This document shows, one piece after another, positions 7,127 through 64,000 of a DNA stretch of 64,000 bases; position 1 is the first letter of the stretch, and every line of letters begins with the position of its first letter. Origin of the DNA: Shinisaurus crocodilurus. Lineage: Eukaryota; Chordata; Lepidosauria; Squamata; Shinisauridae. A program made the translations under genes and the position numbers. The stretch is taken from assembly GCA_021292165.1 (NCBI GenBank), contig CM037880.1, positions 22,590,051 to 22,654,050 of the forward strand, given 5' to 3'. The notes under the pieces are model-generated. The model saw nothing but the letters and a program-made list of their open reading frames with translations. It was not told the DNA's origin and made no database searches.

Positions 7127-8017
7127 TATTTATTTATTTTATTTATTTATTGTATTATATTTGTTAATCGCCCATCTGGCTGGTTGTGGCGGAGTGACAG
7201 GCAGAAACCCAGGGAGGGGCCAACCTGAACATTCCAGAGGCTCTGATTGGTTGAAGGAGAGCATAGAACCCCAGAGAGTTGGCAGTTAAGGTGAGTCGGT
7301 TGTCAGTTGGGGAGAGAGTGGGTTGGAGTGAGAGAGGGAGTGGAAGGTTAGTAGAGTAGGCAGGGAAAGAGTTCAGACAGGAAATCTAGTAACTAAGTTG
7401 TGAGAAAGCAAACATGAAGGTGTTAGTATAGAACAATTCACAGGAGTCTCCACTTAGGGAGTGAAGGACCTTCTGTCTGACGAAGAAGGAGAAACTCTGG
7501 ACTACTGTGAGGGACAGTTAAGTTCCCTAGTCTGATACTGTAACTTTCAAGTAACCAAGCCAAATTGATACAAAGAGCACTGTATAACATCTGCCTGCCT
7601 TTAACCTGAATCTAAGCAAAGAACAAGTTTGAATTAACTGTTGAAAATCCAAGTTATCTGTGCCTGAGTTGAATATCAGTTTTGAGACTTCGTTAGAACA
7701 ATAAATCAATCTTTTTATTCAAAGTTCTAATTCTCCAGAGTCTGACTGGTGACAGGAAAGTAAGAAGTGAATTAACGGAGGGGCACCCTGCTTCAAGTAA
7801 TCAAATAAAACAAACTGCTCTTAATAAAGACAAACAAACGTGGATGAACAGCTACATATAAGACCTAAGACACATAATCGGCTAATGCGGTTTAAGAAGA
7901 CAGCTTCAAGTCTGAAGTGACCCATACAAGGGGGCACTTGGTGAGAGCGAAGTACACATTGAGGGTGTGGGCTTTGGAGTAAGGGGTCCCGTCCGTTACA
8001 CCGGTCACCCGGCCATT
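7127..8017 (-). mobile_element. Antisense L2 tail interrupted by a solo LTR
   Basis: The left part (tttattgtattatatttgtt, then aatcgcccatctggctggt, ending at 7184) and the right part (ccggtcacccggccat from 8001) are adjacent in intact L2 tails such as 20346-20410. Here they are separated by an 816-bp LTR, so the L2 tail was present before the LTR inserted. Confidence 0.6.
7185..8000 (+). mobile_element. Solo LTR, 816 bp
   Basis: The block begins TGTGGCGGA and ends TCCGTTACA, an imperfect terminal inverted repeat with canonical TG...CA ends. The flanks are ctggt (7180-7184) and ccggt (8001-8005), a 5-bp target duplication with one CpG-type C-to-T difference. A polyadenylation signal AATAAA lies at 7700-7705, followed by a T-rich stretch. 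No internal retroviral sequence is present, so this is a solo LTR left by recombination. A 5-bp duplication fits ERV-L/class III or Gypsy elements. The family is not identified. Confidence 0.7.
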
Positions 8018-8920
8018 TTGTAGATACAGCAATGAAATCCTTGCTACCATTTAGAAAAGGGAACAGTAGGGGAACAACACCTTTGCTTGCTGACTTATTT
8101 AAGAGTAACAGTCAACGAGCTGCTATAAATTACATCAAAACCATTAATGAATGTGGCCTCATATGAAGCATTACATAGCTTCAAAATGGTTACACATATT
8201 CTAATTAGTCCTATTCAGGTGTTCTTATTGTGTATATAGAGAACATGTGAGAGGGAAGAGTGAGGACAAGCATGTGCTTTACATATTTTTCTGGCTTTAA
8301 AACTTGTAGTGGAATGCCAGTCAAGCTGCTAAACATCAGGCTGGATGCACAGCTTTTAGTAATATGGAGTTTCTTACTGGAGAGATGATAATATTCAGGT
8401 TCAGTTTCCCATCCCTTCATGTGTGCAGTTGATTGTTTATGACCAGAAAGTGTTTTTTCCTTAATTGACTCTTGTTTCTTTTCTTTTGTGTCACTGTCTC
8501 TTCCACCTATTCACTGACTAGTTTTATTGCTTTATGTCTTCATTGGTCCCTACAGGCTCTCTTCAGACTCTCATTCAAACGTCCTACGTGATTGATACTT
8601 TGATGTATCACCAATACCTATTTTCATACCACCAATACCTATTCCCACCTTCTGGCCTGCCCTGGGCTAGAGCTGTTTGTGGAGCTGGAAAAGGCAGTTA
8701 CGGAGGCAGGCACTTAAACAGCTTTCTCCTTTCTTCAAGGCCTAAGCATAGGCTTCAGTTATTGGAGGAAGAGTAGGGTGTCTTTTCAAGTGTCTGCTTG
8801 CCTTTCCCAGATCCACAAACAGGTCTGGCCTATGTTAAGCAACTTTTTAATACCAATGTAACTTTGCTCTGTGTAGCATCCAGGGGTGGATTTAGGTCCA
8901 GCAGAAAAGTGGGAGGCCAT
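8018..8920. other. Intronic stretch, nothing recognised
   Basis: Unstructured intron. A short local duplication (caccaatacctattttcata / accaccaatacctattccca) lies near 8609-8646. No exon-like frame was found. Confidence 0.4.
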
Positions 8921-8993
8921 TTATTTATTTATTTATTTCATTTATACCCCGCTCTTCAGCCAGAAAGGCTCTCAGAGCGGCTTACACAAATTA

Positions 8994-10708
8994 CCGTATA
9001 TACTCAAATATAAGTCTAGTTTTTCAGCACAATTTTTGTGCTGAAAAATGCCCCCCTCGACTTATACGTGGGTCAGCGCCCCCCCAGGACCCCCGCCGCC
9101 GCCGCCACCGCAAGGGACCGCCAGGCACCCCCCTCCACCCCCAGGACCCCTGCCGCCACCCCCAGACACCCCACCCCCACCCCCGTACCTGCACCCGCCA
9201 CCGCCGAAGCCCCTCCCCCGTCGAAGCCGCGCCGCAGCCCCCCCAGACACCCACATGCCACCCCCACGCTACCCCCAGACACCCCCCCACGCCACCCTAC
9301 CTGCACCCGCCACCGAAGCCCCGTTGCCACCGAAAAGCCTCCCTGCCGCCGAAGCCTCGCTCCCGCTGAAGCCCCTCCCCCGCCGAAGCCGCGCCGCGCC
9401 GCAGCTTCCCCAGACACCCCCCATGCCACCCCAAACACCCCCATGCCACCCCAGACACCCCACCCACACCCCCGTACCTGCACCCGCCGCCGCCGAAGCC
9501 CCTCCCCCGCTGAAGCCGCGCCGCGCCGCAGCCCCCCAGACACCCTCATGCCACCCCCAAACACCCCCACGCCACCCCCACGCCACCCCCGTCACCGTAC
9601 CTGCTCCCGCCGCCGAAGCCCCACTTCGGAAGGGGAAGGCGCGAGCGATCCTCTTCCCGCCCGAACCTGCGTTTGAATCACGGAGGCCCGCCTCGCAGTC
9701 CGCCTCCGGGCGGCCAATCAGGAGGCGGGAGGCGCCGGCTCCTGCCCGGAGCCGGCTGCCCATTGGCCACGCCCGGGGAAGAGGGCGGGGCGGAGGAGGA
9801 GGCGGCGAAACAGGTTACAATGTATCCAATGCGAGAGGCGCAGATTAAAATAAAAAACAACAAGCGGCGCCTGGGCACGTGTGGGCGGGGCCAGGCAAGG
9901 GCGGGGGGCGGCCTCTCCGGTGCAGCGAGCGCTCCGCGGGTGGGGCGGGGCGAGGCGAGGCGAGCGCTGTCTGTCTGTCTGTGTGCCGGCAGCTTGGACC
10001 CGGACCCAGGCAGCCGCCCCGCCGCCCTCCTCCGCGCAGCAGCAGCAGCAGCAGCCCCGCCCCGAGCGAGGCGAGCCCCCGACTGCGCCGCCCGTGCCTC
10101 CACCTGGCATTCCATCAGCATCTGCAGCGAGCTGTCCTGACGGCGACTCTGAGCCGGCCCGGCCCCGCCCCGGGGGCAGAGGCGAGCCGAGCGAGCAGGA
10201 GCAATTTGTCTGGGGGGCTGCGGCGCGGCGCAGCTTCGGCGGGGGAGGGGCTTCGGCAGCGGCGGGTGCAGGTACGGGGGTGTGGGTGGGGTGTCTGGGG
10301 TGGCGTGGGGGTGTCTGGGGTGGCGTGGGGGTGTCTGGGGGTGGCGTGGGGTGTTTGGGGGTGGCATGGGGGGCTGCGGCGCGGCGCGGCTTCGGCGGGG
10401 GAGGGGCTGCGGCGGCGGCGGGTGCAGGTACGGGGGTGTGGGTGGGGTGTCTGGGGTGGCGTGGGGGTGTTTGGGGGTGGCGTGGGGGTGTCTGGGGGTG
10501 GCAGGGGGTCCTGGGGGGGCTTTGGCAGGGGGGCTTGGCGGCAGTGGTGCAGGTATGGGGGTGGGGGGTGTCTGGGTGGCGGCGGGAGTCTCCCCTCGTA
10601 CATTTCCCACCCTAGACTTATACTGGGGGCAATAAGTTTTCCCAGTTTTGGGGGGTGAAATTAGGGGCCTCGACTTATGTTAGGGCCGACTCATAGTTGA
10701 GTATATAC
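8994..10708. mobile_element. TA-flanked palindromic element with GC-rich core (Tc1/mariner-type, non-autonomous)
   Basis: The ends are inverted (ccgtatatactcaaatata at the left; gagtatatac at the right) and both sides carry the dinucleotide TA (8992-8993, 10709-10710), the target duplication of Tc1/mariner elements. Inside the tips, cttatac-type motifs repeat on both sides (cctcgacttatac, tagacttatactgggggc). Next come long GC-rich arms that are inverted relative to each other: C-rich tandem units at about 9040-9640 (gaagcccctcccccgccg, cagacacccc) and their complements at about 10205-10605. A unique core of about 560 bp lies between. No transposase frame exists, so mobility would need one in trans. 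Confidence 0.65.
9640..10204. promoter_or_regulatory. GC-rich promoter-like core carried inside the transposon
   Basis: CpG-dense, non-repetitive sequence. It contains CCAAT boxes at 9714-9718 and 9826-9830, an inverted one at 9762-9766, GC boxes at 9783-9790 and 9883-9891, an A/T-rich TATA-like motif at 9843-9857, a CACGTG E-box at 9876-9881 and a CAG run at about 10037-10055. This composition is typical of vertebrate CpG-island promoters and unlike the simple arms on either side. The direction of any transcript is unclear. I infer a captured promoter or 5' UTR but cannot name the source gene. An alternative is sequence simply grown by GC-biased expansion. Confidence 0.4.
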
Positions 10709-10906
10709 TAATAAGACAGTCCCTGCCCTCAGGCTCACAATCTAAAAGACATGAACACAAAACATCAAGGAACACTGAATATAGTATTTAAAAAAAATAA
10801 TCTACAGAATATAAGAACAGCAATACAAGTTAATATTAAAAAACACTAAATATTCAAAAAAAAATACAACAGAAATAATTACAGATACCAACAAACAAAA
10901 ACAAAA

Positions 10907-11812
10907 AAAGGCAGGAGCAGCAGCAGCCTTTGTAGCTGGAGTCAGTCAGGCCCCACCCTCCCTAGCCAGGTGTGATGAGCCAGGGAAGCAGGGACCAGGT
11001 CTTGCAGGACTCACAGCTAGATGGTCTCTAGGCACCTTCAGCAGGAGCAGGAGTAGCAGCAGCTTTTGTAGCTGGAGTCAGTCAGGCACCACTCTCCCTG
11101 GCCAGGTGTAATGAAGCAGGGACCAGGTCTTGCAGGACTCACAGCTAGATGGTCTCCAGGCACCTTCAGCAGGAGCAGCAGCAGTCTTTGTAGCTGGAGT
11201 CAGTCAGGCCCCACCCTCCCTGGCCAGGTGTGATGAGCCAGGGAAGCAGGGACCAGGTCTTGCAGGACTCACAGCTAGATGGTCTCTAGGCACCTTCAGC
11301 AGGAGCAGGAGTAGCAGCAGCTTTTGTAGCTGGAGTCAGTCAGGCACCACTCTCCCTGGCCAGGTGTGATGAGCCAGGGAAGCAGGGACCAGGTCTTGCA
11401 GGACTCACAGCTAGATGGTCTCCAGGCACCTTCAGCAGGAGCAGCAGCAGCCTTTGTAGCTGGAGTCAGTCAGGCCCCTCCCTCCCTGGCCAGGTGTGAT
11501 GAGCCAGGGAAGCAGGGACCAGGTCTTGCAGGACTCACAGCTAGATGGTCTCCAGGCACCTTCAGCAGGAGCAGGAGTAGCAGCAGCCTTTGTAGCTGGA
11601 GTCAGTCAGGCACCACTCCCTGGCCAGGTGTAATGAAGCAGGGACCAGGTCTTGCAGGACTCACAGCTAGATGGTCTCCAGGCACCTTCAGCAGGAGCAG
11701 CAGCAGCCTTTGTAGCTGGAGTCAGTCAGGCCCCTCCCTCCCTGGCCAGGTGTGATGAGCCAGGGAAGCAGGGACCAGGTCTTGCAGGACTCACAGCTAG
11801 ATGGTCTCCAGG
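10907..11812. repeat. Minisatellite, ~7 copies of a ~120-136-bp unit
   Basis: The phrase tgtagctggagtcagtcagg recurs at 10931, 11067, 11189, 11325, 11455, 11591 and 11711. The spacing mostly alternates between ~136 and ~120-130 bp, so the higher-order unit is a dimer of about 258 bp. Each unit also carries caccttcagcaggagcag and ggaccaggtcttgcaggact. The small open frames through the array reflect the unit's composition and not a gene. The last unit decays into unique sequence at ggtctccaggccatcc. Confidence 0.85.
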
Positions 11813-12524
11813 CCATCCAATCCCACTTTGAGTACTGATGTCAAACCATTGTTTGGTGTTAAATCTGAACCATCCCAGAATGTTTGCCCTCTCTAGAAGC
11901 ATTTGGCCAAAAATATGAAAAGTAGTTGTCCCCAAGAAAGGAATTATGAAGCAAATAGACTGCCGCTTGGTTACTAGTCTGTGAGAGTTTGTGGCCTTTG
12001 CCAGCCAAATGAAATTAAGCAACTGGAATTGTGGCTTCTTGCTATTAAAATGACATCCAAGAGAACTAGTTAATTGACCATGACTGTCATTTTAATTGAG
12101 TGGATTTGGGACTGTATTTTCAGCCTGGCGGTGGCTGAAATGGGCTAATAACCAATTCATGTTGCTCAGTACCAGAAATTGAATAGGCACTAATTTTTTC
12201 ATGAGCTTTGGGATGGGAACTTAATGTAATTTGAGAGATTAAAAAATAAATCAGTATTGCTGGAAAGCGTTCCATGGAGGAAGGAATTAGCATAACATTG
12301 CACTACATAAACTCCTGTTCATATTCAGTAGCTATCAATTGTTTCTTTTTTTTTTTAAAAAAAGAAAAAAGTAAGAGCACTACATTTTTGTACAGATGTC
12401 ATTTGTTGTATGGAAAAGCCTTCCTAATGGTGATGGATGAATGTAGGATTACAGGAACTGAAGAAAAGCTTTGAGCTGTGGCAAAGAAAGTACACTTACT
12501 CAGGAGAAACCCCTTTGAGCTCAG
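11813..12524. other. Intronic stretch, nothing recognised
   Basis: Ordinary intron with a T/A tract (ttttttttttaaaaaaa) near 12346-12363. No exon or structured repeat recognised. Confidence 0.4.
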
Positions 12525-17987: not shown

Positions 17988-19694
17988 TAATCTGATGAAG
18001 TGGACAAGGTGCTTTCATCTGTGAGGCCGACCACCTGCTTGCTTGACCCTTGCCTGTCCTGGCTCATTATGAGCTGCAGGGAGAGACTGGGTGAGGGGAT
18101 CAAGGCGGTGGTGAATGCCTCCCTCGAGGAGGGAGTGATGCCATCAGCCCTCAAGGAGGCAGTAATAAGACCGCTTCTAAAGAAGCCCTCCTTGGATCCC
18201 CAGGATTTAAACAACTTTCGCCCAGTCTCCAATTCACCATTTCTGGGCAAGGTGATCGAGCGGGTGGTGGGTGCTCAGTTGAAGGCACACTTGGATGAAG
18301 CCGATTATTTGGATCCGTGCCAGTCGGGCTTCAGGTCTGGACATGGGACGGAGACGGCCTTGGTCGCCTTGGTGGATGATATGAGGAGGGCTTTGGATAG
18401 GGGCGAATGCTCCTTTCTAGTCCTCCTCGATCTCTCAGCGGCTTTTGATACCATTGACCACGGTATCCTCCTGGACCGTCTGGAGGGGTTGGGCTTGGGA
18501 GGCACTGTATTGCAGTGGTTCCGGTCCTTCCTCTCTGGAAGGTATCAGAGGGTAGTTCTCGGGGAGGAGGCTTCGGACCCTCAGGCCTGCTCACTTGTGG
18601 AGTGCCAGCAGGGTTCCATCCTCTCCCCGATGTTATTCAACATCTACCTCAAGCCGCTGGGAGCTATCATCAGGAGGTTTGGGGTGCAGTGTCATCAGTA
18701 TGCGGATGACACACAGCTCTACCTCTGTTTTAAGTCCTCACCGAGGTTGGCCGTTGAGACCCTGTCCAAGTGCTTGGAGTCAGTGGCTGGCTGGATGGGA
18801 AGGAACATGCTGAAACTGAACCCCGACAAGACCGAGGTACTTCTGGTGGGGGACAAGGGAAGGTTAGGGGATGTTGACCTGGTGCTGAATGGGGTACATC
18901 TACCCCTGAAGGACCAGGTCCGCAGCTTGGGGGTCATTCTAGACTCCCAGCTGTCCATGGAGGCTCAGGTGGCAGCTGTGAGCCGAGCGGCGCTGTATCA
19001 ACTCCATCTGATATGGCAGCTGCGCCCCTACCTTCCTAATCACCTGCTCCCATCAGTGGTACATGCCTTGGTCTCCTCTCGCCTAGACTACTGTAATGCG
19101 CTCTACGTGGGGTTACCCTTGAAGACGGCCCGGAAGCTTCAGCTGGTACAGAACGCGGCGGCTCGCCTGATTAAGGGCAGCCGCCGGCGTGATCACATCA
19201 CGCCAGTGCTTAATGAGTTGCACTGGCTACCAGTTGCTTGCCAAGCCAAATTCAAGGTGTTGGTTTTGACCTTTAAAACCCTACACGGCTCCGGCCCAGC
19301 TTATCTCAAGGAGCGCCTCCAGCAACATCAAGTAGGCCGCTCAACAAGGTCTGCCACGGACGGCCTTCTCCTTATCCCATCAGCCAGAGCAGCCAGGCTG
19401 GTGGGGACTAGGAAGAGGGCCTTCTCTGTGGCGGCCCCCACATTATGGAACTCCCTCCCTAGTGACCTTCGCCATGCCCCCTCCGTGATGAGCTTCCGCC
19501 GTGCATTAAAAACATAGCTGTTCAGGCGGGAATATGGGGTGGGTTAGGTTTTTAATGAGAATTTTTTATATTGTTTTAATTATTATATTTTATTGTGTTG
19601 TTTTGCTGTGTTTTAATTGTACATCGCCCAGGGTGGCCGGGTGACCGGCCAGATGGGCGATTGATAAATATAATAAATAAAATAAATAAATAAA
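17988..19694 (+). mobile_element. L2-clade LINE, 5'-truncated
   Basis: The element starts abruptly inside the reverse-transcriptase ORF. After the ORF stop there is a 3' UTR ending in the family signature ttgtacatcgcccagggtgg, then gaccggccagatgggcgatt, then a TAAA-type tail (AATAAATAAA). The endonuclease domain is missing, typical of incomplete target-primed reverse transcription. The long open frame suggests a recent insertion. Confidence 0.8.
18000..19517 (+). CDS. L2-type LINE reverse transcriptase, 5'-truncated ORF2
   Basis: A 505-codon uninterrupted frame for the polymerase part of an L2/CR1-group ORF2 protein, which copies element RNA into DNA at a nicked target. Landmarks, counting the GTG at 18000 as residue 1: NNFRPVSNSPFLGKVIERVV (~71-90), QSGFRSGHGTETAL (~108-121), LDLSAAFDTIDHGIL (~143-157, catalytic D at ~150), CQQGSILSPMLF (~202-213), HQYADDTQLYL (~232-242, catalytic YADD), KLNPDKTEVLLVG, and the family's C-terminal ELHWLPV...FKVLVLTFKTLHGSGPAYL. 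A stop lies just 3 codons upstream of 18000 in this frame, so the true ORF start is lost with the 5' end. The protein cannot be independently mobile without the endonuclease. Confidence 0.8.
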   Translation: MDKVLSSVRPTTCLLDPCLSWLIMSCRERLGEGIKAVVNASLEEGVMPSALKEAVIRPLLKKPSLDPQDLNNFRPVSNSPFLGKVIERVVGAQLKAHLDEADYLDPCQSGFRSGHGTETALVALVDDMRRALDRGECSFLVLLDLSAAFDTIDHGILLDRLEGLGLGGTVLQWFRSFLSGRYQRVVLGEEASDPQACSLVECQQGSILSPMLFNIYLKPLGAIIRRFGVQCHQYADDTQLYLCFKSSPRLAVETLSKCLESVAGWMGRNMLKLNPDKTEVLLVGDKGRLGDVDLVLNGVHLPLKDQVRSLGVILDSQLSMEAQVAAVSRAALYQLHLIWQLRPYLPNHLLPSVVHALVSSRLDYCNALYVGLPLKTARKLQLVQNAAARLIKGSRRRDHITPVLNELHWLPVACQAKFKVLVLTFKTLHGSGPAYLKERLQQHQVGRSTRSATDGLLLIPSARAARLVGTRKRAFSVAAPTLWNSLPSDLRHAPSVMSFRRALKT

Positions 19695-56500: not shown

Positions 56501-56696
56501 ATAATTGTGCTTACTAAATATTTACTAATCAACAAACATTCCGCACATCAGACCTGCAGCTCCATTCACAGGTATTGAAATTTGAGGGTGGTGGTGGTGG
56601 TGGTGTATTGTGGTGATTTTTGAGGGTGGAGCAGCGCAAGCTGGCTTAACTTCCTGGCAGCGTTGGTATTTGTTAGAAGTGTCTTTGTTCAAGTCC
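56501..56696. other. Host flank of the provirus
   Basis: Contains a (GGT)n run at 56587-56606. No gene is seen. The bases agtcc immediately before 56697 would be part of the proviral target duplication, but the other flank is outside the window. Confidence 0.4.
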
Positions 56697-57340
56697 TGTA
56701 AAAAGAAATAGTTCTCTGGACAAGAAAATTGGTGAAAGCAAAGCACTTTTTATTGAATACAGTCTTGCAAGAGTGGGTGCGCTATGCAGGTAGGCACACC
56801 TTAACATTCAAGCAGCGTGTTTTTATTCCCTATGCCCGGCCGCAGGGTTCCTCCCTCATTCCCCCATTGGCTGGGTACTTTGAGGTTTACAGCCTATTCC
56901 GACCGCCTAAACCGAATACATTATTCCCCGCTCCTGTTTACCGACCCTCCTCTTGTTGTGTGGCATCCTGTTACTCTAATTTCCTATTGGCTCTTCCACA
57001 CATTCCTTAATTTCATTTTAACTTTGACCTCTTACTCTCCCATCAGCAGACACCTCTTCTTTTGACACATTTTTATGCCTGGTCTGTGTTTCCAGAAAGG
57101 GAGGATTCTTTATTTATCTGTTACTTACTTATTCAATGTCATCCCTATCTAAGCATAATTTATCATCTACTAATCCTATGCCATCCTTATGACCCGGGCA
57201 TTGAGTTTCTTACATATTTTAGGCCTCATTTATTACTAGACTGGGGCCCCCATTCAGGGTGAGTTCTCTGGCTTCTTTTAATTTCTGTCTTTTATTTTAT
57301 TTAATATAATTTGGGAAAGAAACTTTCTATAATTCTTACA
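56697..57340 (-). mobile_element. 3' LTR of the provirus, 644 bp
   Basis: On the minus strand it starts TGTAAGAATT (57340) right after the polypurine tract and ends TTTTTACA (56697), giving short inverted TG...CA ends. In U3 there are CCAAT boxes (minus strand, 56990-56986 and 56870-56866). An A/T-rich TATA-like gggaataaaa lies at 56830-56821, and AATAAA at 56754-56749 serves as the polyadenylation signal. The order CCAAT, TATA-like, AATAAA, CA end is as expected for a retroviral LTR. The precise end is inferred from the inverted-repeat match. Confidence 0.7.
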
Positions 57341-57363
57341 ATCCCTCCTCTTTTTCTTTTTAC
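57341..57363 (-). promoter_or_regulatory. Polypurine tract
   Basis: The minus strand reads aaaaagaaaaagaggaggga, directly upstream of the LTR's TGTAAG. In retroviruses this RNase H-resistant tract primes plus-strand DNA synthesis (known). Confidence 0.8.
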
Positions 57364-57382
57364 TCTTTTCTTTTCCAACACT

Positions 57383-57931
57383 TTAGTCAATTTCTTTCAT
57401 CTTAATATAGTATGGTGGAGACGTTTCGTCTTCTAATACTATCATACTAGTATCATAAGCCGGAGGAGTCAGTGGCATTTTCTTAGATAGGGCGGTTTCA
57501 ATAAGTCTTTGTGTTAGTCCTCGGACACAAGGGATAATACAACATCCTAACGCTACTAAGACTCCTCCTACCACAATCAGGGAAGTAAACATTGAGATTG
57601 CTAAGGTTTTCCACTTCCCAAACCATGTTTCTAACCATCCTGTCAATGAAGTATTTATTCCTGAGTTTTCAGCAAGTTCCGCTGCCAGGGTATTGAGACC
57701 CTCTAGAGCTTTTGTTATTGTCCCATCAGGAGCAGTATTGTTGGGTATGAAGGTACAACACTGTCCTCCTAACATTACACAGACGCCACCTTTTTCTGCT
57801 AAAACCATGTCCAAAGCCATCCGATTTTCCCAAGCTATTCGACTGGTGGCATCCAATTGCTCCGCTATCCCTTTTATTGCATCTCGGGTATAGTTTATGA
57901 ATCTCTGTTGATTGTAAAAGATGTAATTAAT
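57383..57931 (-). pseudogene. env: env transmembrane-subunit region (after two in-frame UAGs)
   Basis: Same reading frame as the surface-subunit ORF upstream, resumed after UAG codons at 57962-57964 and 57932-57934. The first ATG in the open part is at 57856 (157 codons). From that ATG, a CX6CC motif (C26...C33C34), typical of gamma-type envelopes in which the two subunits are disulfide-linked, is followed by a hydrophobic membrane span (~84-110, including IVVGGVLVALGCCIIP). The ~45-residue cytoplasmic tail carries PPAY and ends at the UAA at 57383. The two UAGs fall between the cleavage site and the heptad region, so a full envelope cannot be made without suppression. Confidence 0.8.
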
Positions 57932-57961
57932 CTAGTCAACATTTTTATTTATGGTTGACCA

Positions 57962-59278
57962 CTAAAAGAGAGCAGACTCAAATCCGGCAGCTATTTGATT
58001 TCGGGCTTTAAATTCATCTGGAACTCCTCGGGGCACCCCTATGGCGTCAATATATATCCCTTTATCAAAGGATGTAACTAGTACATTCCTTTTGTTCCGA
58101 CTATGCCATTCGGGTTTAACTTCCTTTTTAAAGGCCAGGGTGAATGGTACTGCTAATTGTATTATAGCACAAGTCCCAGTCCAATTGGCGGGTAAGGTTG
58201 GCCTTATAGACTTTCCCCCACAATACCACCATAAGTCAGCTCTGGCCACTCTCAAGTTAGAGTAATTCCCATTGCTTAATGTGATGTTCAATACCTCCTT
58301 ACATGTGTTCAGTTCTCCCATTGGCCTGGCCAACCCCCCCACTTGTCGTGAGAAACAAGCAGTGTGATTGACGTGCCTAGTAGAGAATGTCGGAGGCATT
58401 CTTTCACTTTTGGACTTTAAAGCTGGGAACAATAGGGATAGAGACCTGCAAGTCTCATTTCCCCAAGCATCTTTATGCTGGAACAGAGCTATTATACAAC
58501 TCATTCCCAGGGGGTCCTTGCTCCAACCCAGAGGAAAGGGAATTACTTGTGCTACAGGCCTTCCTGATGCACAGGCATAACAGTTACTTTTGTTCAAACT
58601 TTTAGCAGTATACTTCACCCATTCAACCCAGGTGTTCGTGTCTCTATACCCTGTTTCTACTTCAAATGTTTGGCGCAGATCTTCAATCTCAACTACTGTC
58701 ACTACCTTCGGATCATTCAGAGGAGCTTGGAAAGTTTTAACTTTGGGCATGACAGTTGCCTCTAAGGTTTGGTCGTTAGAATCTGACTTTTCTACTATTA
58801 ATCTAAAACAGCATGCAACGGGATCAGTTCCAGAAACACTTATTCCCATGCTAAACGAAGTCTGATTTATTGAGAATTTGGTTGGCCGGCCACCAGAGGG
58901 ATATTTATTCCAAGATGTTTGGACGATGGATACCCATACTGGATTGCAAGTCCCCTCTTCACAATCTGACCGAGTAGGACCTTTACGAATTGAAACCATA
59001 TTTTTTATTCTAGAGTGAGGAGACGCTGCTGTCCATCCTTGGGATTGTGTGGTCCACAAGACTTCGGACCAGCGACGACAGGGCGTCCCTACACACATAT
59101 ATTTGTCTTGGGAACTCCACCGTCTCTGAGTGTTCAAATCTCCACATTTCAACAAGCTGCAGGCATCGAATTTTATAACTTGAGTCTGACTACTTTCTCT
59201 AATTTTTATTACAAACGTAGTGGAGATGTTGCCAACCAGAGATATCAGTATACCTATACAAATTAATCGGGCTGTCAT
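57962..59278 (-). pseudogene. env: env surface-subunit ORF, truncated by in-frame UAG
   Basis: A 438-codon open frame for the receptor-binding envelope subunit. An N-terminal hydrophobic signal peptide (about residues 1-19) is followed by an ectodomain rich in cysteines and N-glycosylation sites. A CXXC motif (CYAC, 233-236) is the kind used in gamma-type envelopes to isomerise the SU-TM disulfide. A furin-like RNKR site is at 394-397. The frame runs ~41 residues past the cleavage site into the fusion region before a UAG. A second UAG follows 9 codons later, and then the same frame continues as the TM part. The fusion-region residues look more like envelopes of fish and reptile ERVs than of mammalian ones (inference). 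The 45-codon ORF ends 30 nt upstream. Confidence 0.85.
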
Positions 59279-59308
59279 GGTTACAATCTTTTAAGGAACT
59301 GAAGGTTT

Positions 59309-59446
59309 CTAATCCTCTGTCAATTCTTTTGACACGGAAACCCCAAAGAACTTGTGTTTATAGATATAACATATAGTTACTAACCCACTAAGAATAAGAA
59401 AGATTACAAGGATTATTTCAGCTACAACTAATTCTCTAGTTTGCAT
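59309..59446 (-). CDS. ORF-C: 45-aa predicted single-pass membrane peptide
   Basis: A short ORF between pol and env. The product begins MQTRELVVAEI and has an uninterrupted hydrophobic stretch (about residues 7-28, ILVIFLILSGLVTICYIY). A short basic then mixed tail (KHKFFG...) ends at a UAG. Topology would be a type-III/type-I small membrane protein, reminiscent only in layout of the small membrane proteins some complex retroviruses encode next to env. Its ATG overlaps the last 11 nt of ORF-B in another frame, and env starts 30 nt after its stop, in the same frame. I recognise no homologue. Expression would need a spliced or bicistronic message. Confidence 0.55.
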   Translation of the reverse strand: MQTRELVVAEIILVIFLILSGLVTICYIYKHKFFGVSVSKELTED

Positions 59447-59651
59447 TATATTGTATCTTCCACCCTGGGAACAAAGGGATTCCCCCTGGAGGGATCTCTC
59501 TGGGTGTGGATCCTATGTCTACAGTAATATTTCTTATTATTTGAGGTCTTCCACCTTGGGACTTCTTTTGCACAATTATCACCTTTTGTTGACCTTGGAT
59601 TTGGACAGGTAAGGATCTAGTTTCTAGCACTAGTGGACTTGGCCCTCCCAT
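59436..59651 (-). CDS. ORF-B: 71-aa protein of unknown function
   Basis: It starts 3 nt after the tandem stops UAG-UGA that end ORF-A and is in the same frame. It is proline- and glycine-rich, basic in the middle (VIIVQKKSQGGRPQIIR), and ends with GGIPLFPGWKIQ. No signal peptide, cysteine motif or recognised domain. Because it shares a frame with ORF-A and pol, it could be a separate spliced product, a readthrough extension, or the decayed end of a once longer ORF-A. The short length and lack of homologues I know keep confidence moderate. Confidence 0.45.
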   Translation of the reverse strand: MGGPSPLVLETRSLPVQIQGQQKVIIVQKKSQGGRPQIIRNITVDIGSTPREIPPGGIPLFPGWKIQYNAN

Positions 59652-59654
59652 TCA

Positions 59655-60242
59655 CTACAGGTCTGCCCACAGTCCTTCTCCACAATACATGTACCCCTTT
59701 GTTTTTCTTTCCCAAGGATCAGAGGTTGCGTATGGGAGTTCCTCGTCTGAATCGTCCAGATTTAGTAGTCCTCCCTTATTTGATCCAAATCTTGACTTAC
59801 ACTGCTTATATTCCAACTCATGGAAATTATTCAGTTGTGGGGGTAATTGGATCACCTGGTGGGCCCAACGCCTAATGCCTCGATTTTGAACTGCTAATTC
59901 GTTTTGTAACTCATATCCTTCTACTTCTCGGACACCGATTTTCCTAAGGAAAAACCACTTATGCCACTGTCCTTGAGTTCCTACCCGTCGGTATCTTATG
60001 ACCCAAAACTGAACTGGCTCTCCAGTTCCTAATTTAGGTAACGCTAAGTCCCCTTTCTCTATCCTTAATTCCCAGAATGGGCACAAGATTTCTTCCCAGA
60101 TCACAGATGATCCTGGGCCTGTAGTCCAGCTGTCTACTAATGGACTTACTATTGTTGCATATCTTTCCTCTGGATCCCAATCCGGGTTGTTATCTGGTCC
60201 CGCATCCCACCCTGGTACAGAATCCCCTATGGTATTGTCCAT
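59655..60242 (-). CDS. ORF-A: 195-aa accessory protein of unknown function
   Basis: An intact ORF whose ATG directly follows the pol stop (UAG-AUG, same frame). The protein is tryptophan-rich (11 of 195). Its N-terminal ~35 residues are acidic (DNNPDWDPEERYA). A central basic-aromatic block follows (FWVIRYRR...QWHKWFFLRK), then an acidic cluster (LNLDDSDEELPYA) and a C-terminal MYCGEGLW. No transmembrane segment, signal peptide or zinc motif. Simple gammaretroviruses have nothing here; lentiviruses and some fish retroviruses carry regulatory or accessory genes in this position (known). I do not recognise the family and assign no function. An intact 588-nt frame in a provirus with few breaks argues that it was a real gene. 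Confidence 0.65.
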   Translation of the reverse strand: MDNTIGDSVPGWDAGPDNNPDWDPEERYATIVSPLVDSWTTGPGSSVIWEEILCPFWELRIEKGDLALPKLGTGEPVQFWVIRYRRVGTQGQWHKWFFLRKIGVREVEGYELQNELAVQNRGIRRWAHQVIQLPPQLNNFHELEYKQCKSRFGSNKGGLLNLDDSDEELPYATSDPWERKTKGYMYCGEGLWADL

Positions 60243-62528
60243 CTAATGGGTAACTTTCTTAAGAACTATTTTCGTGGGTGTTTGTGTTTTAATTACTGTC
60301 CAACTGTTAGCGTTTGGAGGTTCTTCCACAGGCCCTTTCACTCGCGTATAGTGAGTCCACCTTTTTTCGGCTGTCCGGACTGCGGTTTCTGTATTCAGGA
60401 GCGTTTGGAAAGGCCCCTCCCACTCCGGTTGGAGTTTGGCTTCTTTCCACGATTTGATCAACACCCACTGTCCTGGTTGTATATTGTGGACTGCGAATTC
60501 CAGGGGTGGCGTTTGCGCTAGGAGTCCTTTCCTCCTAAGAAAAGATAAAGAAGACGACAGCCCAAGTATATACTGTTTTAAAAACCGATCTTTGGTCTCA
60601 TATTGGGGCAATTCTCCAAGTTGACCCATGTATGGAAGACCAAACAGCATCTCATATGGGGATACTCCTATATCCTTCCGTGGGGCGGTCCTTATCCTTA
60701 ACAAAGCGAGGGGCAAACATTTAGTCCAAGGTAATTTAGTTTCTAAAATTAATTTGCGCAAGGTGGCTTTTAACGTTTGATTCATTCTTTCCACTTTTCC
60801 AGAGGATGGAGGATGCCATGGTGTATGATAATCCCAACTAATTCCCACTCCCTCCATGATTCTTTTCAATACCTTGGAAGTAAAATGACTCCCCTGGTCT
60901 GAATCAATATGTTCCACTATTCCATACCTGGGCAAAATGTGTTCCAGGATAATTTTACTTACTCCAGTTGCAGTGGCAGTTGACATTGGATATGCTTCTA
61001 CCCAGTTGGTTAAATGATCTACTAAGACCAGTATATATTTCAACCTGCCTACTGGAGGGAGTTCTGTAAAATCAACCTGGATACTTTGGAAAGGACGCAA
61101 TCCTGGCTTGCGCCCACCTGGTGGTTGCTTTCTTAGCACCTTTTTGTTGATTTTTCTGCAGATCATACACCGTTCGCAGATCTGCTTTGCTACTGTGTGT
61201 ATCTCCATACACCCATATTCTCTAAGTACTAAATCACACATAGCTTGGACTCCCCAATGGCCCCCTTCATGTAAAATAGCCATAATTTCTCTCATTATTT
61301 GTTTGTTGACCATTTCTCTGCCATCTGGGAGTATCCATTTTCCCTCTTCTACTTCAGTTGCTCCTAATTCTTTTAGTCCTAACATCTCCCTTTCCGTCCA
61401 TACTGGCCTTTCTTTTGTTTTTGGCAACCTAGGGGTTAGCATGTTCATTTTTACTACTTCTTCTCCCATAGCAGCTTCTTTAGCTGCTTCATCCGCTAAT
61501 GCATTCCCTCTTGCTTCAAAGGATGCACCTCTTTGGTGACCAATTATGTGGACCACCGCTATTTCTCTAGGCAAAAGTAAATTTTCTAACACTTCTTGTA
61601 CTAGTGCTCCGTGTACTAGTTCTTTTCCTTTGCTATTTATTAATCCCCTCTCGTGCCATATTTTTCCAAATGTATGTACTACTCCATAAGCATATTTAGA
61701 ATCCGTATAGATGGTCCCATCTTTTTCTTTTAAAGCCTTGAGGGCTTGATTTAAAGCATACAGTTCATAGGTTTGGGCTGACCAGTTATTGGGCAACCTT
61801 CCTGATTCTGTTAGTTCTTTAGTGTTACCATCTATTACGGCATACCCATTGTGTCTTTTTTCTTCCAATACACGGGAGGACCCATCTATAAATAGGCAAG
61901 TTCCCTCATGCAATGGAAGGTCTCTCAAGTCTTGTCTCACTTTAGTCTGATATTCAATGATATCCAGACAATTGTGTTCTAAATTTTCACACTCATGTTC
62001 CCCTTTTGTCAGAAACGTGGCTGGATTCAGACAATTTTCAGTGGTGAGGATTAAATCCTCTTTTTCCATTAGGACCGCTTCATATCTCAAGATTCTAGAA
62101 TCTGTTAGCCATCTCCCTGCCCTTTGTGTCAAAATGGTGCGAACTTGATGAGGCGTACTGACCACTAGTGCCCCTCCAAAAGTTAGCTTCCTGCTTTCTT
62201 CTACTAACAGAGCTGTTCCTGATATTGCCTGAATACATTCTGGCCATCCTCGGGAGACTGGATCCAGAATTTTTGATAGGTATGCTACTGGCTTTCGCTG
62301 TCCTCCCCATTTCTGGGTGAGCACTCCCAAAGCTGTTCCCTCTTGTATGCTGACAAACAAATGAAATGGTTTGTCTAAAGAAGGAAGAGCCAATACTGGA
62401 GCAGTTATCAGATCGTGCTTTAGGATTTTTATTAATTCTTTTTCTCCATCTGTCCACACTAATTCATTTGGTTTTTCTTCCAATAATTTTAGATACAGTC
62501 CTTTAGTTTTAGCCGCATAGGAATCTAT
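60243..62528 (-). CDS. pol: pol C-terminal part: RNase H and integrase
   Basis: Continues the pol frame after the UAG at 62529-62531. The first ATG is at 62483, giving 746 codons numbered here. RT connection, then RNase H with its acidic set D200 (FIDGSS), E240 (TYELYAL), D261 (YTDSKYA) and D331 (ALADEAA). The integrase zinc-binding site is H405, H409, C436, C439. The catalytic D,D-35-E is D471 (VDFTE), D529 (SDQGSHF) and E565 (GKVERMNQT). The C-terminal domain (GQWVLIKSW...PEWEGPFQTLLNT) is of gammaretroviral type. RNase H degrades the RNA template and integrase inserts viral DNA. No break is seen over 2.2 kb. The stop UAG directly precedes the ATG of ORF-A. Confidence 0.9.
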   Translation of the reverse strand: MDSYAAKTKGLYLKLLEEKPNELVWTDGEKELIKILKHDLITAPVLALPSLDKPFHLFVSIQEGTALGVLTQKWGGQRKPVAYLSKILDPVSRGWPECIQAISGTALLVEESRKLTFGGALVVSTPHQVRTILTQRAGRWLTDSRILRYEAVLMEKEDLILTTENCLNPATFLTKGEHECENLEHNCLDIIEYQTKVRQDLRDLPLHEGTCLFIDGSSRVLEEKRHNGYAVIDGNTKELTESGRLPNNWSAQTYELYALNQALKALKEKDGTIYTDSKYAYGVVHTFGKIWHERGLINSKGKELVHGALVQEVLENLLLPREIAVVHIIGHQRGASFEARGNALADEAAKEAAMGEEVVKMNMLTPRLPKTKERPVWTEREMLGLKELGATEVEEGKWILPDGREMVNKQIMREIMAILHEGGHWGVQAMCDLVLREYGCMEIHTVAKQICERCMICRKINKKVLRKQPPGGRKPGLRPFQSIQVDFTELPPVGRLKYILVLVDHLTNWVEAYPMSTATATGVSKIILEHILPRYGIVEHIDSDQGSHFTSKVLKRIMEGVGISWDYHTPWHPPSSGKVERMNQTLKATLRKLILETKLPWTKCLPLALLRIRTAPRKDIGVSPYEMLFGLPYMGQLGELPQYETKDRFLKQYILGLSSSLSFLRRKGLLAQTPPLEFAVHNIQPGQWVLIKSWKEAKLQPEWEGPFQTLLNTETAVRTAEKRWTHYTRVKGPVEEPPNANSWTVIKTQTPTKIVLKKVTH

Positions 62529-63761
62529 CTACAACCTACAGTATCCTGTTAACCCTAGGAACTTCTTCAATTCCCTTTTTGTCTTGGGTAGGGGTGTTTC
62601 GACTATCCCTTTTACTCTTTCAGGGCTAATTCTTCTTTTCCCCTCACTTATGAGATGCCCTAAATATTTTACTTCCTTTTCTACAAATTGAAGTTTGGAC
62701 TCTGACACTCTCAGTCCTTTCTGTCCTAGAAAATTTAACAGCGCTTTTGTGGCCTCCGCCACTGGGCCTCTCTTTTTCCCTGAAATTAGAAGGTCATCCA
62801 CATACTGGAGGAGGAGCGTTCCTGATGGCATTTTAAATTGCTCTAAGAGTTGTTCCAATACTTGTCCAAACAAGTTTGGACTCTCAGTGAATCCTTGTAC
62901 GAGGACTCGCCACCGGAATTGTTGTTTTCTTCCAGTATTTGGATCCTCCCATTCAAAGGCAAACATATCCCTACTCTCCTCAGCCAAAGGACAGGTCCAA
63001 AATGCATCTTTAAGATCAATTACACTAAACCACCTATGTTCATGTGGAATTCTACTTAAAAGAGTATATGGGTTAGGCACTACAGGATGTCTGGTCTGAA
63101 CTATTTGGTTCAACTTCCTTAGGTCCTGCACCAATCTGTAACTACCATCTGGTTTCTTTACTGGTAGTATAGGGGTGTTATAAGGTGACATGCAAGGTTC
63201 TAACAACCCATCTTGCACCAGAGTTTCTATGACTGGCTTCAAGCCCTTCCTTCCTTCTAATGGTAAAGGATACTGTTTCTGACATACTACTTCACCTTCC
63301 CTTTTTAACTTTATTTTTAATGGAGGTATATCTAAAATTCCTCTATTCCCCTCTTTAACCCATACTTTGGGGTTTATCTCTTTGATATCTTCCTCTGAAA
63401 GAACTGCCATCTTTACTACCATTTCTTTGTTTTCCACCCTTACTTCTAGCCCTAGTTCTGTCGTCATGTCTCTTCCTAACAAATTTGTGCCTAATTCTGG
63501 TAAGTAAAGAGGCTGACACATTATTTCTTCTTTCTTATGTTTAATTTGCATTGGTTCAAACATTGGGGTCCGAATTTGGCCTCCTACCCCTGACGCTAGT
63601 ACAAAATTATTGGACAATTGGGTTCCTACAGGTCTGTAATTAAGGGAGGTTCTTTCTGCTCCACTATCTACAAGAAATACTGTATCCTCTTCTCCTGGCC
63701 CCACCTTTAAATTTATCAAGGGTTCCCGGTGGGTCCTTTTAAAAGGATACCCCTGACTCCC
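62529..63761 (-). pseudogene. pol: pro-pol N-terminal part: protease and reverse transcriptase, ended by in-frame UAG
   Basis: In frame with gag beyond the UAG at 63762-63764, so it would be made by stop-codon readthrough. Numbering from the ATG at 63719: aspartic protease with VDSGAERT (D18) and LLGRD (~80-84). RT follows, with LPVKKPDGSYRLVQDLRKLN (~185-204), VIDLKDAFW (~233-241, first catalytic D), LVQGFTESP (~273-281) and the catalytic YVDD at 306-309. In the template-grip motif, gammaretroviral RTs usually have LPQGF; here it is LVQGF. The frame stops at a UAG after FLGLTGYCRL, in the RT thumb/connection, and resumes in the same frame. That single stop inactivates pol. Confidence 0.85.
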
Positions 63762-64000
63762 CTAATCCTCTTCCATATTCATTAGTGGGATAATCCTTTC
63801 TTCCCTTTGGATCTCGGGACAATCTCTTTTAAAGTGTCCTAATTTTCCACACCGGAAACATCCAGCTCTCTGTCCTCCCCTTTCTTGACCTCTTCCTGTC
63901 CCCAACTGCCCATCCTGATTTTGTCTGCTTGAGCCTGGTTTTCCCTGTTTCCACTTTCCCCTCCCCATTTTTCCTTGTTGTCCCTTCTGACCATTAGCCT
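63762..64000 (-). CDS. gag: gag C-terminal part: nucleocapsid
   Basis: Partial; the frame is open to the window edge. One zinc knuckle CFRCGKLGHFKRDC (CX2CX4HX4C) sits in a very basic, Gly/Gln/Arg-rich context. This is the RNA-packaging nucleocapsid; a single knuckle is gamma-type. Gag ends in UAG at 63764-63762, followed by ggg agt cag ggg, very like the known gammaretroviral readthrough context, with pol in the same frame. The rest of gag lies beyond the window. Confidence 0.85.
   Translation of the reverse strand, partial: ANGQKGQQGKMGRGKWKQGKPGSSRQNQDGQLGTGRGQERGGQRAGCFRCGKLGHFKRDCPEIQREERIIPLMNMEED

Follow-up and report, generated by a model that had tools for sequence, protein, structure and literature searches.

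In murine leukaemia virus (MLV), pol passes into env with an overlap, and the walleye epsilonretroviruses carry extra frames after env. Viruses with a gamma-type Env are typically simple and have few accessory genes, according to the available part of PMC9967133. The subgenomic mRNAs of snakehead retrovirus (SnRV) contain small open reading frames (ORFs) of 52, 94 and 76 residues, and a 205-codon frame begins at its env end (available part of PMC12193657). In CrocERV29 a host KIT-ligand ORF occupies the pol-env gap, with the viral genes retained (available part of PMC4299795). Here we describe a provirus in a 64,000-nucleotide stretch of Shinisaurus crocodilurus DNA (the window; contig CM037880.1, positions 22,590,051 to 22,654,050), in which a cassette of three frames, ORF-A, ORF-B and ORF-C, lies between pol and a gamma-type env. 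Like SnRV and the walleye viruses, this provirus is non-mammalian and has small extra frames; unlike them, it has no ORF after env, where the stop is separated from the 3′ long terminal repeat (LTR) by 42 nt that include a purine tract. It shares an extra ORF in the pol-env gap with CrocERV29, but the frame there is a recognizable host cytokine, whereas ORF-A, ORF-B and ORF-C matched nothing that we found. We found no report of such a cassette in the open literature, including the accessible parts of the papers on Ovex1 and on fish and Xenopus endogenous retroviruses.

We propose, with a probability of about 0.6, that the cassette is the accessory-gene block of a once-infectious gamma-type retrovirus, expressed from spliced, partly polycistronic mRNAs. 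The sequence features that point to this are the frames and their conservation, selection on ORF-A, a depletion of AUGs and candidate splice sites. The three frames are:

59655-60242, minus strand: ORF-A, 195 amino acids; isoelectric point (pI) 4.9, 11 tryptophans, acidic ends, basic middle
59436-59651, minus strand: ORF-B, 71 amino acids; pI 10.5
59309-59446, minus strand: ORF-C, 45 amino acids; one hydrophobic segment and a short charged tail

An earlier note on this DNA had listed frames of 195, 71 and 45 codons between pol and env without naming the strand, and both the frames and their junctions were recovered as it described: pol and ORF-A meet at UAG/AUG, ORF-A and ORF-B at UAG-UGA-AUG, ORF-B and ORF-C overlap by 11 nt, and 30 nt separate the ORF-C stop from the env AUG (59278). 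Its picture of ORF-A as tryptophan-rich with basic and acidic blocks was borne out (residues 81-100 of the basic middle carry a net charge of +5), and its prediction that ORF-C is a membrane peptide was supported, the hydrophobic segment (residues 7-25, KD19 2.8) being found in a frame that is kept in a diverged lineage.

A search of the host genome (2.19 Gb) with ORF-A gave 134 matching stretches (E of 10 or less). About 82 of them span most of the frame (in 195- or 200-residue forms), and 62 of these 82 lack a stop within the match; judging from the match table, those with E above 0.1 seem to be fragments or chance hits. ORF-B matches adjoined near-full ORF-A copies and stood beside none of the places with a short form. 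Seventy copies were examined: the 30 top-scoring matches (L002-L031), the 15 full-form copies that followed by score (L057-L071), two copies of a sister lineage (L055 and L056) and every one of the 23 short-form places in the match table (L032-L054), a sample biased toward good ORF-A matches. The earlier note had asked whether related copies keep the frames, and the answer was divided. The cassette was present in 47 of the 70, with ORF-A intact in 39, ORF-B in 43, ORF-C in 43 and all three in 33, counts that say little about selection because the sample leans to good ORF-A matches and the family is young. The remaining 23 are internal-deletion derivatives in which the ORF-A frame breaks off by about residue 124, ORF-B and ORF-C have no match, and env resumes, from about residue 180-200, within about 100 nt after ORF-A; in addition, ORF-A is broken in both sister copies.

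The sister lineage allowed selection to be measured. L055 and L056 are 93-95% identical to the main lineage over the last 195 pol residues and 81-82% identical at the env start. We calculated the ratio of nonsynonymous to synonymous change (dN/dS) between lineages, restricted to codons that are shared by at least 90% of 45 main copies and that do not differ between the sister copies. The ratio was 0.04 and 0.07 for the pol 3′ end, 0.24 for the env start and 0.39 for ORF-A (144 codons; bootstrap 0.23-0.65), indicating that ORF-A was under purifying selection, looser than that on pol and env. Within ORF-A, codons 1-71 gave 0.24 and codons 74-140, past the point at which the sister frame is disrupted, gave 0.72. 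Taken together, a dN/dS below 1, a strong candidate splice acceptor upstream and a conserved start make it very likely, as judged from sequence, that ORF-A was a gene. The ratio expected by the earlier note was thus obtained for ORF-A, whereas the values for ORF-B (0.80; 2 synonymous and 5 nonsynonymous changes; bootstrap 0.09-2.88) and ORF-C (0.48; 3 synonymous and 6 nonsynonymous changes; bootstrap 0.07-2.26) rest on only 7 and 9 changes.

Two side observations concern the same comparison. L056 contains an insert inside ORF-A, about 245-420 nt after its start, that resembles a short interspersed element. In addition, the block 59652-59411, which comprises the ORF-B block and the ORF-C start, differs between the lineages by 3.3%, whereas its flanks differ by 11-14% (P = 9e-6), and hardly any synonymous change is seen in it; this low divergence may reflect either recombination or overlapping constraint.

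The distribution of AUGs and of candidate splice acceptors bears on how the frames may have been expressed. The features concerned are:

60532-60554, minus strand: best candidate 3′ splice site, with the acceptor at 60535 and the exon start at 60534, 292 nt before the ORF-A AUG
60243-60534, minus strand: leader from this acceptor to the ORF-A AUG, with no AUG in any frame; also the pol 3′ end
59462-59484, minus strand: weaker candidate 3′ splice site, 19 nt before the ORF-C AUG; junction 59465; same place in L055 and L056
59385-59407, minus strand: weaker candidate 3′ splice site, 110 nt before the env AUG (112 nt in L055 and L056); junction 59388

The leader lies within the longest stretch (359 nt) that lacks AUGs in 57341-64000 and is kept free of AUGs in 44 of the 47 cassette copies; among the short-form copies, 9 of 23 have leader AUGs, and 8 of those 9 share two, allowing for indels. 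When synonymous codons were randomized in 18 blocks of pol, ORF-A and env, out-of-frame AUGs were low only in the three blocks that cover the leader and ORF-A (0, 2 and 2, against 3.0, 4.6 and 6.3 expected; P = 0.010, 0.037 and 0.008), with no depletion in the other 15. AUG was the most depleted of the 64 trinucleotides in both the leader and ORF-A under both synonymous controls, nearly tied with TAT in ORF-A under one of them. The window copy is extreme, with 4 out-of-frame AUGs in ORF-A; 40 of 44 main-lineage copies have 6, and in the three such copies tested 12.2-12.3 were expected (P = 0.002-0.005). In the sister lineage, L056 has no AUG in ORF-A codons 1-71 (2.6 expected, P = 0.02) or in the leader (2.5 expected, P = 0.02), and L055 has none in the first 71 codons of ORF-A and one in the leader. 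The context of the ORF-A AUG itself is weak, with T at -3 and G at +4; the env AUG has the best context (ACCAUGA).

The acceptor at 60535 ranked first of the 648 AGs in 56671-64000, with a score of 10.3 against 10.2 for the best of 200 shuffles, and the corresponding site scored at least 9 in 44 of the 47 copies with the cassette. Across the interval that begins 900 nt upstream of the ORF-A start and ends 1100 nt downstream of it, the three best acceptors occupied the same sites in the same ranks in both lineages. The leader donor, AAG/GTAAGA, was the best of the donors scored.

The provirus around the cassette reads, from 5′ to 3′, gag end, UAG, pro-pol, ORF-A, ORF-B, ORF-C, env, purine tract and 3′ LTR, and extends past the right end of the window. 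Its other parts are:

63762-64000, minus strand: gag 3′ end, with one CCHC knuckle and a readthrough-type UAG stop in frame with pol
60243-63761, minus strand: MLV-like pro-pol, with an in-frame stop at 62529-62531
57383-59278, minus strand: gamma-type env, with an in-frame stop at 57962-57964
57342-57361, minus strand: purine tract, directly before the 3′ LTR
56671-57340, minus strand: 3′ LTR, matching the 5′ LTR in L072

Pol and env have one in-frame stop apiece, and the ORF ends flanking each stop share one frame; no net frameshift is thus seen in either gene in the available part of the provirus. The 5′ LTR, in a 2-kb stretch outside the window (L072), differs from the 3′ LTR (56668-57340) at 6 of 673 positions (99.1% identity), which, at the substitution rates typical of vertebrates, would correspond to a few million years, and is followed by a primer site that is presumably of the proline-tRNA (Pro) type. 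There is no clear target-site duplication at the LTR ends (56671 in the window; about 1051-1056 in L072), meaning that either the LTR boundary is uncertain or the provirus is recombined.

Among the best 60 rows of each search of the Protein Data Bank (PDB), the reverse transcriptase (RT) half of pol matched MLV-type chains at up to 267.5 bits (best non-MLV, 103) and the RNase H half at up to 268 bits, the entries being ones that we take to be MLV or xenotropic MLV-related virus. The integrase matched Pfam MLVIN_C above its cut-off, so that RT, RNase H and integrase are all of the MLV type that marks a class I provirus. Env has CYAC (a CXXC motif) in the surface subunit, the furin-type site RNKR and CVMLGGQCC (a CX6CC motif) in the transmembrane subunit (TM), features of a gamma-type Env; it scored 24.1 bits against Pfam TLV_coat (cut-off 22.5), and Syncytin-1 and -2 were the best PDB matches of the TM piece. 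At the gag stop, a full-length match to Rfam GP_knot1 stayed below the cut-off (22.9 against 67.7 bits, E 0.31). From the MLV-type pol and the gamma-type env motifs, we conclude on sequence grounds that the backbone of the provirus is gamma-type. MLV and its relatives resemble this provirus in the best PDB match of RT and RNase H, in gag and pol lying in one frame across a UAG, in the gamma-type env, in the candidate splice acceptor in the pol 3′ end and in the presumably Pro-type primer site. The difference is the 964 nt with three frames that stand between pol and env here, where a simple genome has nothing. The earlier note had called the virus a complex retrovirus with gamma-type gag-pol. 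The gamma-type gag, pol and env and the very likely reality of ORF-A agree with it; complexity in the regulatory sense is a matter of what we infer.

From these features we also infer how splicing, scanning, protein production, protein topology and every protein function may have worked. Simple gammaretroviruses splice env at an acceptor in the pol 3′ end, and because the acceptor at 60535 has the position used for env splicing in MLV, the cassette would sit between the old env acceptor and env. The strong leader donor would splice to 60535 and yield an mRNA with ORF-A as its first long frame. Given the weak context of the ORF-A AUG and the shortage of AUGs before ORF-B, some ribosomes would pass the ORF-A AUG by scanning or reinitiation and reach ORF-B; such scanning on an mRNA spliced to 60535 would explain why AUGs are avoided in the leader and ORF-A and not in upstream pol or in env. 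ORF-C would be reached from a further acceptor 19 nt before its AUG, and env from another, 110 nt before its own. ORF-A would be a soluble charged protein, ORF-B a small basic protein and ORF-C a single-pass membrane peptide with a tail that is probably intracellular. By analogy with vif and vpu, which occupy an equivalent genomic position, the three would most likely have acted late, against host factors that limit infectious spread. The loss of the cassette together with the env start in copies that still multiplied hints at a role of the cassette in infectious spread and not in core replication; help in trans from intact copies would fit this loss equally well.

Several observations weigh against the proposed accessory-gene block. 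The short-form sub-family, in which a deletion starts inside ORF-A and reaches into env, has expanded to 23 copies without the end of ORF-A, ORF-B, ORF-C and the env start, perhaps helped in trans. The ORF-A frame is disrupted after residue 76 in both L055 and L056, the changes in ORF-B (7) and ORF-C (9) are too few to show selection, with bootstrap intervals that span 1, and in so young a family open frames by themselves mean little. As for scanning, codons 1-71 of the main-lineage ORF-A taken alone are not depleted of AUGs (2 against 3.2, P = 0.27), no depletion was found within ORF-B or ORF-C, and in the window copy of ORF-A, G stands at -3 in three of four out-of-frame AUGs, so that scanning would be partly stopped. 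As for splicing, both scoring matrices are approximate, the acceptor before ORF-A lies inside pol coding sequence and may owe its conservation to pol, five sites elsewhere in the provirus outscore the candidates before ORF-C and env, and a 4-codon upstream ORF precedes the leader donor.

The alternative that survives best, which we nevertheless consider unlikely, is that ORF-A is a real accessory gene and that ORF-B and ORF-C are only spacer or env-leader frames open by chance. Among 2000 versions of the pol-env gap shuffled by dinucleotides, the longest ORF beginning with ATG averaged 47 codons and reached at most 166, so that 195 was never attained, but it reached at least 71 codons in 9.3% of them, and the length of ORF-B alone is therefore unremarkable. 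The dN/dS values of ORF-B and ORF-C cannot be distinguished from 1, and in L055 the ORF-B frame runs on into that of ORF-C. However, L056 keeps the starts and frames of both, along with the env start, and the changes between lineages spare the hydrophobic segment of ORF-C. Moreover, when scored by the codon usage of pol, env and the gag end, self-shuffles scored as high or higher in 0 of 1000 cases for ORF-A, 37 of 1000 (3.7%) for ORF-B and 10 of 1000 (1%) for ORF-C. The ORF-B block is also unusually conserved, although recombination could account for this.

It is improbable that ORF-A is a captured fragment of a host gene without a long-standing viral role, for which CrocERV29, with its host gene captured between pol and env and its viral genes retained, offers a precedent (available part of PMC4299795). 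ORF-A matches no Pfam or NCBIfam family, and its one PDB row (E 2.4) is at chance level. No cellular parent was found in Pfam, the PDB or the six-frame host genome, where introns or fast divergence could hide one. All 70 fetched ORF-A matches adjoin pol, the weaker matches resemble chance or fragments, and the third codon positions of ORF-A are A-rich, as in pol. Least probable of all is that the cassette is a functionless passenger, open merely because its copies are young, since the dN/dS of ORF-A below 1, the AUG depletion that holds under two synonymous controls with its border at the acceptor and the acceptors common to both lineages oppose it, despite LTRs that differ at 6 of 673 positions, many nearly identical copies, a broken ORF-A in the sister lineage and deletion derivatives that multiplied.

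A displaced piece of pol or env, the outcome that the earlier note had set in advance against its own reading, was rejected: tblastn of ORF-A, ORF-B and ORF-C elsewhere in the window gave nothing better than E 1.4, and there was no credible Pfam match. A known protein family for the cassette was likewise rejected, with nothing usable in Pfam, NCBIfam or the PDB; at E up to 1, Pfam gave no family for ORF-A or ORF-B and only unrelated sub-threshold rows for ORF-C. The predicted fold of ORF-A (predicted local distance difference test, pLDDT, 36) was useless for comparison. ORF-B was predicted from a single sequence to form a three-strand sheet with moderate confidence (mean pLDDT 67), and a search with this fold gave no viral match better than E 0.056. 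Among 17 windows of an RNA structure scan of the cassette, one, inside ORF-A, reached z -2.9, and the others ranged from -1.4 to 1.3. No relative was found in viral contigs scanned with two pol pieces, the env TM and ORF-A, where an RT motif scan yielded one 249-kb contig with a motif match, or in genome contigs scanned with one pol piece.

Elsewhere in the provirus, the RT region of pol (62780-62980, minus strand) has a very stable predicted RNA fold (-68 kcal/mol, z -5.3), a value that none of 200 shuffles matched. Of the 90 windows in the scan it was the lowest, followed by one at z -3.9. Outside the provirus, long open RT frames of 418 and 505 amino acids at 41-1297 and 18000-19517 (plus strand), which match RVT_1 and resemble long interspersed elements (LINEs), suggest young LINE activity. 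Positions 8001-12000 are G+C-rich (56-59%) against a background of mostly 40-50%.

The pol-env arrangement recalls human immunodeficiency virus 1 (HIV-1), in which the vif-vpu-env block resembles this provirus by layout only: a frame of about 190 codons directly follows pol, and env is directly preceded by a small membrane peptide. The presence of several candidate acceptors and of AUG contexts that go from weak to strong are further similarities to lentiviruses. However, pol is MLV-like and not lentiviral, and the comparison is one of analogy only: for homology to Vif or Vpu, Pfam at E up to 1 offered no support in any of the three frames. We tentatively suggest, as a possibility somewhat short of even odds, that a lentivirus-like accessory block evolved independently between pol and env in a gamma-type lineage, within a class of viruses described as simple, with a soluble protein of about 22 kDa and a single-pass membrane peptide that were expressed from spliced, partly polycistronic mRNAs by leaky scanning and countered host restriction. 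The synonymous-site test for AUG depletion offers a cheap screen for polycistronic reading in other proviruses. If the suggestion is true, a pol-env accessory block would not be peculiar to lentiviruses, and the gamma-type viruses of hosts like this one could be used to ask which host defences drive such genes.
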